Shown here: piece by piece, positions 51,895-57,328 of the stretch
Position numbering within the stretch: position 1 is the stretch's first letter
Layout of the letters: each line of letters starts with the position of its first letter
NCBI RefSeq assembly: GCF_001436695.1
Contig: NZ_AYZG01000051.1
Location: 436,387 to 500,386, forward strand
Source: Lactobacillus taiwanensis DSM 21401
GTDB taxonomy: Bacteria > Bacillota > Bacilli > Lactobacillales > Lactobacillaceae
Reading direction: 5' to 3'
DNA: 64,000 nt
Position numbers and translations under genes: made by a program
The notes under the pieces: model-generated
The model's database searches: none
Seen by the model: the letters and a program-made list of their open reading frames with translations, nothing else
What the model was told of the DNA's origin: nothing

Positions 51895-52371
51895 TTACTT
51901 AATCAATGTCTTTCTATTAGTTTTTAAATGTGCACCAGTAATTTCTTTACCAGCTTTTAAATCTTCATAAAGTTTCTTCTTATCGGCTTTGATAGTCTTT
52001 TCTTCAACTACATAATCAATTGGTAGTTTTCTAAGTTCTTCAACGATGACTGAATCGCGGTAATTTCTAGGCTTAAGAATGTGGTGTTCAGTTTTAATTT
52101 CTTTCAAACCGGCATCATCAATTGCATCAGTGATGTACTGATTTAATCTATCTTTTTTATTCTTAGATACTTTGATAAATTCTCTAAGTTCAGTCATTCG
52201 CTCTTTAGCCCATTGAATTTCACTATCATACTTATCAGATAAACCAGCCGCTCCATCTAATTTTTGATCTCTTGTAAGTTCTAAGCTTTTAATCGTATCG
52301 ACTAAAACCTCAGGATCTAAGTCTTTATTTTCTATTTCTGCAATGGCGTTGTTAATTTCAAAAACATTCAT
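51895..52371 (-). CDS. Siphovirus Gp157-family protein
   Basis: 158 residues, coiled-coil N-terminus followed by a small beta domain (TEHHILKPRNYRDSVIVEE ... IKADKKKLYEDLKAGK) as in the Gp157 family, first linked with phage resistance in Streptococcus thermophilus. Part of the early operon. Confidence 0.85.
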   Translation of the reverse strand: MNVFEINNAIAEIENKDLDPEVLVDTIKSLELTRDQKLDGAAGLSDKYDSEIQWAKERMTELREFIKVSKNKKDRLNQYITDAIDDAGLKEIKTEHHILKPRNYRDSVIVEELRKLPIDYVVEEKTIKADKKKLYEDLKAGKEITGAHLKTNRKTLIK

Positions 52372-52372
52372 G

Positions 52373-52501
52373 TTATAATCCTCTTGTAAATGTATATTTA
52401 TATTGGTCGTTATCTGTTGGCGCAGGTAACGACTTTTTTTGTCCGTCTATAATTGCATTACTGTTAGCAATCAACTTATTAATAGTAGTTTTACTAAGCA
52501 C
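52373..52501 (-). CDS. 42-residue phage protein
   Basis: GTG start at 52501 with AGGAGG nine bases upstream. The stop lies one base before the Gp157 ATG. Polar protein, not recognised. Confidence 0.5.
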   Translation of the reverse strand: MLSKTTINKLIANSNAIIDGQKKSLPAPTDNDQYKYTFTRGL

Positions 52502-55221: not shown

Positions 55222-55593
55222 ATGAAATTAAAAATTAATATGTGGACTGGAATTTTAGATATTATAAACTGTGTATTATTTGCTGTATCTTGGCCAGTAA
55301 TTTTTGGAACTGCATTTTCAGATGCATTTTCTGGAAGCAATTTAACTAATGGTACAGGAACATTTTTCTATGTTATGGCTTGGGCAGGCGTAATTTTAAA
55401 TATAATTGCTCTAGTTCAATCAAAGAAATCTAATATTTCAATTGTAGGCCCAATTCTTGGAATCATCGGAAGTGCGCTATTCGGTTTAACCGCAGCTCTT
55501 GCTTTTCCTGCACTAGTTGTATTAATTATTGCGACTGTATTTACTATGTTGCAACATCCAGCTAAAAATGCTGAAGCAAAAACTGAAAAATAA
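55222..55593 (+). CDS. Small membrane protein of the lysogeny module
   Basis: 123 residues with three or four hydrophobic segments and a Lys/Glu tail. Not recognised. It follows the lipoprotein by 27 bases and probably works in the same transcript. Confidence 0.65.
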   Translation: MKLKINMWTGILDIINCVLFAVSWPVIFGTAFSDAFSGSNLTNGTGTFFYVMAWAGVILNIIALVQSKKSNISIVGPILGIIGSALFGLTAALAFPALVVLIIATVFTMLQHPAKNAEAKTEK

Positions 55594-55604
55594 TTAAACA
55601 AAAA

Positions 55605-55760
55605 ATCCCACCGATGCGCCAACATCAGTGGGATAAGGAAACGAGCTACGCCAATAGCTCAAATGAATGTTTAAAAATATTAACAAAACCATCGCCAAAT
55701 AGTTCTGCTATCTCCTATTTTAGCAGACTTTTAGCGATGCCAAAATAGGAGGTTTTTATT
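55605..55760 (+). promoter_or_regulatory. Structured leader RNA of the integrase gene
   Basis: Three hairpins in 155 bases. H1 (55605-55634): 12-bp stem, one mismatch, loop CGCCAA. H2 (55643-55660): 6-bp stem GAGCTA, loop CGCCAA again. H3 (55690-55739): outer CATCGC/GCGATG and inner TCTGCTA/TAGCAGA, with a loop whose CTCCTATTTT is complementary over 10 bases to the integrase ribosome site (55742-55751). It may control integrase translation or be a known Lactobacillales integrase-associated RNA. Confidence 0.6.
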
Positions 55761-56879
55761 ATGCCTAAAAGGAATAAACACATAAAACAATATAAATTAA
55801 AAAATGGTGATGTTCGTTACATGTTCCATGCTTATTTAGGTAAAGATCCTGTAACTGGGCAACCTATCCAAATCACTAAAAGGAAATTTGCTACTTATAA
55901 TGAAGCGAAAGAAGTTTATGATGAGTTTATCGCTAAAGGCGTTAAAGGCTATATTAAGCCTAAACAACATACAGTAGATGAAGTTTATAAGGTATGGTTT
56001 GAAGCCTATAAAGAGACCGTTAAACAATCTACAGCTAATAAAACAGCGATTAATTATAAGGTGCATATCAAGCCATGGTTTGGGAATGAGTATATAGATC
56101 AAATTGATACTGCCAAATTTCAGTCTTGGGTTAACTCACTTTATAAAAATTTAGTTAAGTACAAAGAAGTCATTAATCGATTTAGTCAAATTTATGATTA
56201 TGGGGCTGCATTAAGATATTGTCAAAAAATATATAATCCAGTTAATGCAGTTATTATTCCTCGAAAGACAAAAAGACGTCGTAGAAATATTCAAAAAAAT
56301 TTCTATACTTTAGACCAACTAAAGCAATTTTTGAAAGTTGCAGAAAAACAAAATTATCGTAGCTATACTTATTTTCTCTTGCTCGCTACTTCAGGAATTA
56401 GAAAATCCGAAGCATTAGCTTTAACTTGGTCCGATATTGATTGGAAAGCCAAAACTGTTTCCATCACAAAAACTTTAGCTTTAGGAATGGATAATAAATT
56501 AATTGTTCAAACACCTAAAAGTTTAACTTCAAATCGGCCAATTCCACTTACTGAACATATGATTACTGTTCTTAAAGAATATCGAAAACAGCAAAAAATT
56601 ATATGCCCTATCATTTTTCATGGCATTAGTAGTAATTACGTTAATCTTTCAAAACCTGATAGATGGCTACAAGCAGTTTACAACGCCGATAAATCACTTA
56701 AAAAGATCACGATTCACGGTTTTAGACATACTTATGCTACTCTTAACAAGAATCAAGAAAGAACTGATGTGGAAGCAGTTATGGGACATAACAGTGTAGA
56801 AATGACTGAACATTATACTCATGCCACTCAAGAAGGAATGGAAAATATCAGAAGTTATATGAACTCGTTAAATATTTAA
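55761..56879 (+). CDS. int: Phage tyrosine integrase
   Basis: 372 residues. An N-terminal AP2-like arm-binding domain (1-60), a SAM-like core-binding domain (70-165) and the catalytic domain with R214 (SGIRKSE), K253, H319-R322 (HGFRHTYAT), H343 and the nucleophile Y352 (TEHYTH). Catalyses integration at the tmRNA 3' end. AGGAGG lies eight bases before the ATG. The att core is 87 bp downstream. Confidence 0.95.
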   Translation: MPKRNKHIKQYKLKNGDVRYMFHAYLGKDPVTGQPIQITKRKFATYNEAKEVYDEFIAKGVKGYIKPKQHTVDEVYKVWFEAYKETVKQSTANKTAINYKVHIKPWFGNEYIDQIDTAKFQSWVNSLYKNLVKYKEVINRFSQIYDYGAALRYCQKIYNPVNAVIIPRKTKRRRRNIQKNFYTLDQLKQFLKVAEKQNYRSYTYFLLLATSGIRKSEALALTWSDIDWKAKTVSITKTLALGMDNKLIVQTPKSLTSNRPIPLTEHMITVLKEYRKQQKIICPIIFHGISSNYVNLSKPDRWLQAVYNADKSLKKITIHGFRHTYATLNKNQERTDVEAVMGHNSVEMTEHYTHATQEGMENIRSYMNSLNI

Positions 56880-56890
56880 AAAATCGTTTA

Positions 56891-56910
56891 TTGTATCAAA
56901 ATTGTATCAA
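56891..56910. repeat. Putative integrase arm-binding repeats, integrase end
   Basis: Two copies of TTGTATCAA at 11-bp spacing, identical in motif, orientation and spacing to the pair at 20746-20765. Confidence 0.6.
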
Positions 56911-56917
56911 AAATAAA

Positions 56918-56956
56918 TAAAAACCGCTCTAAATGTTGATATAGAGCGGTTTTTAT
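56918..56956 (-). terminator. Phage-borne terminator for the tmRNA gene
   Basis: AACCGCTCTA pairs with TAGAGCGGTT around a loop, with T tract on the minus strand, 10 bases after the tmRNA end. It replaces the host copy displaced to 20591-20630. Confidence 0.85.
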
Positions 56957-56965
56957 TCTTATCTA

Positions 56966-56978
56966 TGGAGATGAGGGG
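56966..56978. other. Attachment site core within the tmRNA 3' end
   Basis: TGGAGATGAGGGG, identical to 20640-20652. On the minus strand it is the end of the tmRNA T arm and the acceptor strand. Confidence 0.88.
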
Positions 56979-57328
56979 AATTGAACCCCTGTCCAAACGT
57001 ATTTCGTCGCTAACCTCTACGATCATAGTTATATTACTTAAATTCGCTTTGATAAAACGCCATATAACAGGGCTAAACTATCAAAACTAACCCAAGAATC
57101 TTATTTCTAACTATTAAGGTAAGTAGTTAAACGTAGCTCGTTAAATGGTAAGACCCGCAGACAGACACGAGCAATCCGTCATTGGATCACGCAGGCTGAC
57201 TAAGCAGCTACTGCGTAAGAATTTTCGTTATTTGCAGTTATAATTTAACTGTGACGTTTTTAACGTAGACGTGACCTACGAATCGCAGTCACCGCGAATC
57301 TACGCCTGTCGAATCCCAAAACATCCCC
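56966..57328 (-). ncRNA. ssrA: tmRNA (transfer-messenger RNA)
   Basis: Rescues stalled ribosomes. The 5' GGGGATG pairs with the 3' CATCTCC (one G-U); the T arm GGGGTTCAATTCCCC is intact, discriminator A, CCA not encoded. The tag frame (57200-57235) reads ANNENSYAVAA and a stop. About 363 bases. Prophage insertion restores the 3' end exactly. Confidence 0.95.

Follow-up and report, generated by a model that had tools for sequence, protein, structure and literature searches.

INTRODUCTION

Whether a phage integrates or remains outside depends in part on its integrase level, and to our knowledge little is known of how most Gram-positive phages set this level. The locus described here raises that question. 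In the window, by which we mean the whole stretch of 64,000 nucleotides that was analysed, Lactobacillus-type DNA holds the right part of a prophage, whose integrase gene, int, is preceded by a leader containing the hexamer CGCCAA three times. What do these repeats do, and on which strand do they act? We put at about 80% the probability that a cis-encoded antisense RNA targets the int leader and represses the integrase. The hairpins before int are probably part of this minus-strand small RNA rather than an element of the plus strand.

THE INTEGRASE LEADER AND ITS SETTING

The cro-like, Gp157, and helicase genes of the prophage lie on the minus strand, and the genes for a cI-like repressor, an ImmA-like protease, a lipoprotein, a small membrane protein, and int lie on the plus strand. 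Int (55761-56879, plus strand) is a tyrosine integrase of 372 amino acids (Pfam PF00589, 1.6e-21; PHROG 1, 2.8e-63). Its gene adjoins ssrA (56966-57328, minus strand), encoding the tmRNA, which is transcribed toward int. An attachment site is likely to lie at this junction (56879-57328), of which no second copy was found elsewhere within the window. The leader itself is the 167-base gap between the end of the membrane-protein gene at 55593 and the int start at 55761.

Read on the plus strand, hairpins H1 (55605-55634) and H2 (55643-55660) both carry CGCCAA as their loop, at 55617-55622 and 55649-55654, respectively. The third plus-strand copy (55693-55698) is also a hairpin loop (55687-55704), in a stem that pairs fully on the minus strand only. 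Folding of the int mRNA adds H3 (55690-55739), whose 5′ arm (55690-55710) keeps an anti-Shine-Dalgarno (anti-SD) segment, CTCCTATTTT (55712-55721), off the Shine-Dalgarno (SD) sequence. This segment is a 10-base complement of AAAATAGGAG (55742-55751), which makes up most of the SD of int; the full region, AAAATAGGAGG, spans 55742-55752, with AGGAGG at 55747-55752. All the elements that the earlier note had picked out in this leader are present in the sequence where it placed them.

The leader folds to −47.6 kcal/mol compared with −28.5 (sd 3.8) kcal/mol for shuffled sequences (z −5.1), and none of 200 shuffles folds as well. CGCCAA is not as such enriched within the window (17 copies vs. 13.2 expected); what is non-random about it is its placement in hairpin loops and its conservation. 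A 44-aa open reading frame (55614-55748) was dismissed, having no ribosome site before it and crossing the hairpins.

Similar leaders are found upstream of the integrase in the Lactobacillus phages Lj928, Lj965, JNU_P7, S16, P185, and S193, and 10 of 100 related genomes, the window's own included, hold a match to the leader. The gene upstream of it varies from phage to phage. Stems vary while loops persist, as in the exchange of UCCCACCGAUG/CAUCAGUGGGA for CUCACCUACUG/CAGUAAGUGAG. When 17 leaders are aligned, 97.2% of the 289 cells are paired, and 14 of 17 pairs have changed on both sides (covariation score 0.635 vs. 0.208 when shuffled, reached in 0 of 500). The proposal of a conserved structured element before int is thus borne out by stem covariation.

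A PREDICTED MINUS-STRAND RNA

The mismatches in H1 distinguish the two strands. In the window, its plus-strand stem holds one C·A mismatch that is a G·U pair on the minus strand. Among 91 leaders, whose shared descent means that their counts are not independent events, the 45 distinct H1 stems (475 pairs; the loci of 16 stems came via CGCCAA, likeness to the window, or streptococcal phages) contain 70 C·A against 3 G·U when read on the plus strand, and no other mismatch. Since a plus-strand C·A is a minus-strand G·U, H1 pairs as a minus-strand RNA. This count leaves out four leaders (L186, L204, L260, and L305) in which the script's best palindrome lay elsewhere; by eye, three of them repeat stems already counted, and L305 would add one G·U, no C·A, and one mismatch. 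In alignment A2, 181 of 187 H1 cells are paired on the antisense strand compared with 164 of 187 on the sense strand. The third hairpin leans the same way (8 C·A vs. 1 G·U on the plus strand, 7 distinct stems), and H2, which pairs equally on both strands, shows no strand preference (2 G·U vs. 1 C·A on the plus strand, 11 distinct stems).

A U-tract follows H1 on the minus strand in 44 of the 45 stems and on the plus strand in none, the A-run before H1 on the plus strand being the U-tract after it on the minus strand. Minus-strand pairing and a minus-strand U-tract together therefore mark H1 as an intrinsic terminator for leftward transcription. In the window this predicted terminator, recovered by a terminator scan, occupies 55599-55634 on the minus strand, with the loop UUGGCG and a U-tract opposite 55600-55605; scanning found no plus-strand terminator in the window's leader.

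A candidate promoter lies at the other end. The predicted extended −10 element, TGCTAAAAT (55725-55717, minus strand), sits inside H3, and of 30 distinct leaders, 28 carry TGNTANAAT on their minus strand, compared with 0.85 expected in shuffles, a count over leaders not picked by the −10 motif, all motif-picked loci and L015 having been left out. The strict −10 is absent from leaders L195 and L304, and no good −35 can be discerned in the window. With its ends inferred from the −10 and the terminator, the predicted antisense RNA is about 110 nt long (55598-55710, minus strand), starting near 55710 and ending near 55598. Minus-strand letters 55710-55591 fold into three hairpins (−43.3 kcal/mol): one near the 5′ end (55687-55704), supported by the fold and its C·A/G·U count; H2 (55643-55660), supported by covariation; and the terminator H1. 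CGCCAA would occur three times in the leader because each of these hairpins is looped UUGGCG. Judged by sequence, the leader itself contains both the promoter and the terminator that antisense control calls for.

The loops add a further feature. A YUNR U-turn speeds contact between sense and antisense RNAs, and either partner may carry it (PMC6562991). UUGGCG begins with YUNR, which places the U-turn on the antisense strand in the window. In a set of loci chosen via the promoter region and not via the loop, YUNR stands at the loop start on one strand in all 29 distinct H1 stems (13 plus, 16 minus), and shuffled letters yield a mean of 3.8 and a maximum of 11.

These observations bear on what else H1 could be. 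It might act solely as an insulator, a minus-strand terminator that keeps antisense transcription from the right side out of the lysogeny operon, with the late operon and the tmRNA side as the source and no dedicated antisense RNA. A minus-strand terminator with a U-tract and a tmRNA transcribed toward int are both as such an arrangement would have them, yet three features would be superfluous for an insulator acting alone: the U-turn loops that 29 of 29 stems keep on one strand, the additional pair of hairpins with an identical loop, and the extended −10 conserved just upstream in 28 of 30 leaders. Antisense sRNAs have moreover been seen at the integrases of S. pyogenes prophages (PMC6431027). 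We regard an insulator alone as improbable.

A sense-only attenuator or riboswitch, in which a metabolite, an ion, temperature, or translation would switch between H3 and the anti-SD/SD helix and the minus strand would be irrelevant, strikes us as less likely still. The sense strand does fold well by itself, a point that counts against the antisense reading, and the H3 and SD helices are mutually exclusive; against it stand the minus-strand pairing of H1 and the third hairpin and the absence of any Rfam family from the window's leader at E values up to 10.

LOOP ORIENTATION AND THE LOOP PARTNER

Within the promoter-chosen set, the plus-strand H1 loops are CGCCAA, UUGGCG, CUACCAA, UUACCAG, CUGGUAA, UUGGUAG, UUGGCU, UUGACG, and CUACUAA. 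The orientation of the loop thus varies among related leaders, being either CGCCAA or the inverted UUGGCG, and this inversion fits antisense kissing loops and not a protein that reads CGCCAA. The CGCCAA loops are best read as complements of the U-turn loops of the antisense RNA. Of the two partners that the earlier note had entertained for them, protein or RNA, the RNA has stood; the protein-bound loop is disfavoured by the inverted loops and also by the minus-strand pairing of H1 and the third hairpin. Near-constant as CGCCAA is in Lactobacillus leaders, the inverted UUGGCG and the different CUACCAA, UUACCAG, CUGGUAA, and UUGGCU loops of related leaders, together with C·A mismatches that weaken the H1 sense stem, make it very hard to credit that a phage or host protein reads this hexamer on the int mRNA.

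PROPOSED MECHANISM OF INTEGRASE REPRESSION

From these elements we infer antisense transcription in the phage, a binding pathway, repression, and a use. The promoter in the int leader (extended −10, 55725-55717) would fire leftward to yield the RNA of about 110 nt, with its three UUGGCG hairpins, the last being the terminator H1. The antisense U-turn loops would contact the CGCCAA loops of the int mRNA, which is probably the end of a cI-ImmA-lipoprotein-membrane-protein-int transcript. The spreading duplex would then take the 5′ arm of H3, which the predicted antisense RNA covers, freeing the anti-SD (55712-55721) to pair with the SD (55742-55751) and turn int translation off. When the antisense RNA is absent, H3 would form first, the anti-SD would be held in its loop, and int would be translatable. 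Such a device could keep integrase low in the lysogen and impose dosage-dependent repression during phage multiplication.

The anti-SD segment, which overlaps the complement of the antisense −10, pairs with the SD at −18.4 kcal/mol in the window compared with a mean of −9.8 kcal/mol for control ribosome-binding sites (RBSs). Of 71 leaders, 54 have an anti-RBS better than 95% of control RBSs, comprising 34 of the 45 clostridial leaders and 20 of the 26 others; the remaining 17 fall below this mark, the start of L302 being probably misassigned. The earlier idea of translational control through an anti-SD is upheld by this complementarity. An energy model places the openness of the window's SD at 0.41 when the leader is free and at 0.01 when a mask is placed over the antisense-covered part, to which the 5′ arm of H3 belongs. 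Among 12 leaders of the window's class, a mask that extends through the antisense start closes the SD (openness below half) in 10, compared with 1 when the mask covers no more than H1 and H2.

The corresponding reductions below half on masking are 29 of 47 for clostridial leaders, 3 of 10 for the MASI type, and 0 of 5 for the remainder, so in the model the switch appears to fail or to be weak in other leader types. A plus-strand T-tract precedes the gene in 51 of 54 distinct clostridial leaders, which suggests that these leaders act by transcriptional attenuation. The weaker SD effect elsewhere and the clostridial T-tract make antisense control the shared theme; for the window's leader, SD sequestration is our best reading. 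In clostridial leaders L257-L302, the interval from the antisense promoter to the gene also holds a terminator-like plus-strand hairpin (GGCUGU-UAUUUUU).

DISTRIBUTION OF RELATED LEADERS

The proteins encoded downstream of such leaders were scanned for 18 loci and comprise six tyrosine integrases (PF00589) and nine serine recombinases (PF00239/PF07508), the other three (L251, L263, and L305, a cut integrase) having no Pfam match at 1e-5. By these domain assignments, such leaders recur before unrelated recombinases of both the tyrosine and the serine kind. Among the clostridial relatives, those with names are Ruminococcus gnavus and Roseburia phages. No match was returned when the clostridial, L146, L195, and L251 leaders were used as BLAST queries. 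An integrase search of genome contigs returned eight loci, namely two near relatives (L138 and L139) and six distant integrases.

An RNA model, R1, gave 11 matches with E < 1e-14 in 75 genomes of the genus, all 11 of them opposite an integrase. One further match, at 2.5e-8, marks an additional unit in front of one of these 11 integrases, and 13 weaker matches are other things, five of which lie opposite two other phage genes. Among 151 genomes of the class, R1 returned the window's own strong match and 10 weak ones (E 8.8e-6 to 0.01), most of them terminators whose loops resemble UUGGCG and which do not stand before a recognised recombinase. Terminators of this description in Bacilli (L316, L319, L331-L333, L338, and L339) could be parts of other antisense RNAs or plain terminators. 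A 13-base pattern had matches in 6 of 301 genomes; among the four of these six loci that were listed, none leads into a recognised recombinase and one (L167) is twin-hairpin-like. A loose-pattern search returned at least 120 stretches, mostly due to chance, and the twin-hairpin loci L067, L212, and L241 were likewise judged to be chance and excluded from use.

Several arrangements of related appearance were noted along the way. In one genome (G014; L321/L315), the integrase leader is preceded, at a distance of about 190 bases, by a second terminator hairpin of the H1 type. In three lactobacilli, CGCCAA-looped hairpins stand upstream of a small non-recombinase gene (L146, L156, and L161, near 1500), and no clear minus-strand terminator was found at these three loci. 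Within the window, a second, shorter unit of like build lies at 52371-52440 (plus strand), opposite the start of the Gp157 gene (51895-52371, minus strand) and overlapping a small minus-strand open reading frame. TGTTATAAT covers the start codon on the plus strand, where the unit also has a terminator (52406-52433) with the loop UUGGCG and seven T. This arrangement is also found at L322, L323, and L327 (Gp157) and at L324 and L330 (another phage gene).

WIDER MEANING

Plasmids use a like antisense build for copy control. We venture, tentatively and with more doubt than confidence, that the leaders belong to a superfamily of integrase-controlling antisense RNAs in temperate phages of lactobacilli, streptococci, and gut clostridia, one that is exchanged between tyrosine and serine recombinases, senses gene dosage, and underlies prophage incompatibility. 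Dosage sensing would follow because each phage copy makes antisense RNA, so that integrase falls as copies rise. Because the UUGGCG/CGCCAA loops are common to unrelated phages, those residing in one cell could cross-repress their integrases, which, if true, would amount to incompatibility of prophages. Plasmid-style countertranscript control would then be a common and mobile means of metering both classes of phage recombinase, and the sRNA and ctRNA annotations beside streptococcal integrases would gain a function.

COMPARISON WITH KNOWN SYSTEMS

The earlier note had allowed for a match to a known Rfam family. Positions 55400-55900, which take in the window's leader, yielded only chance-level rows at E values up to 10 and no family, and a scan of the window and six related loci recovered no relevant family at the gathering threshold; the leader is thus a member of neither RF00242 (ctRNA_pT181) nor RF02589 (Spy779816). 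Streptococcal relatives come nearer. The leader of pneumococcal phage phiARI0923, where GenBank annotates ctRNA_pT181 antisense to the integrase leader, scores 32.9 bits (E 0.049; gathering 56) against RF00242 on the antisense strand. Against RF02589, the Javan514 leader scores 46.6 bits antisense to int (E 4.5e-6) and 315.1 scores 37.7 bits on the antisense strand (E 0.006), the gathering score being 67.

In the open-licence literature we found one sentence on such sRNAs, in streptococci, and nothing that deals with lactobacilli or serine recombinases, with a mechanism, or with U-turn loops in RNAs of this kind. That sentence belongs to a dRNA-seq report in which four S. pyogenes prophages show antisense sRNAs (SP119_SR034, SR071, SR086, and SR106) upstream of their integrases; these sRNAs might, it says, contribute to silencing (PMC6431027). 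Strain S119 is close to MGAS5005 (PMC6431027), and Javan514 is a MGAS5005 phage; the Javan514 leader RNA is presumably one of the four. These sRNAs and RF02589 share the place and strand of the window's predicted RNA, and the Javan514 leader has a minus-strand hairpin with a U-tract plus TGTTAAAAT, as in the window's build, whereas the hairpin sequences and loops differ. Table 1 of Weinberg et al. (2010; PMC2864571) lists Lacto-int, a motif of Lactobacillales and phages, without an Rfam number and marks both its RNA and its cis-reg status with a question mark. Judging by its name it lies near integrase, and it may correspond to the locus described here, viewed on either strand.

The closest parallels in design come from plasmids. 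Like pT181 RNAI and repC, the system predicted here would pit a small antisense RNA with a 3′ terminator hairpin against a leader, and in pT181 antisense binding leads to a stem-loop just upstream of the start codon (PMC5703833). Unlike pT181, the window's target is an integrase and not a replication initiator, its antisense RNA has three equal UUGGCG loops, and the outcome would be SD sequestration. Like pIP501 RNAIII and repR, it would combine U-turn loops with antisense-induced alternative folding of the leader; in pIP501, two loop pairs make contact simultaneously (PMC6562991, PMC5703833). Unlike the window's system, pIP501 achieves plasmid copy control via transcription termination at an unrelated gene, and it is the clostridial integrase leaders, with their plus-strand T-tract in 51 of 54, that look nearer to pIP501 than the window does.
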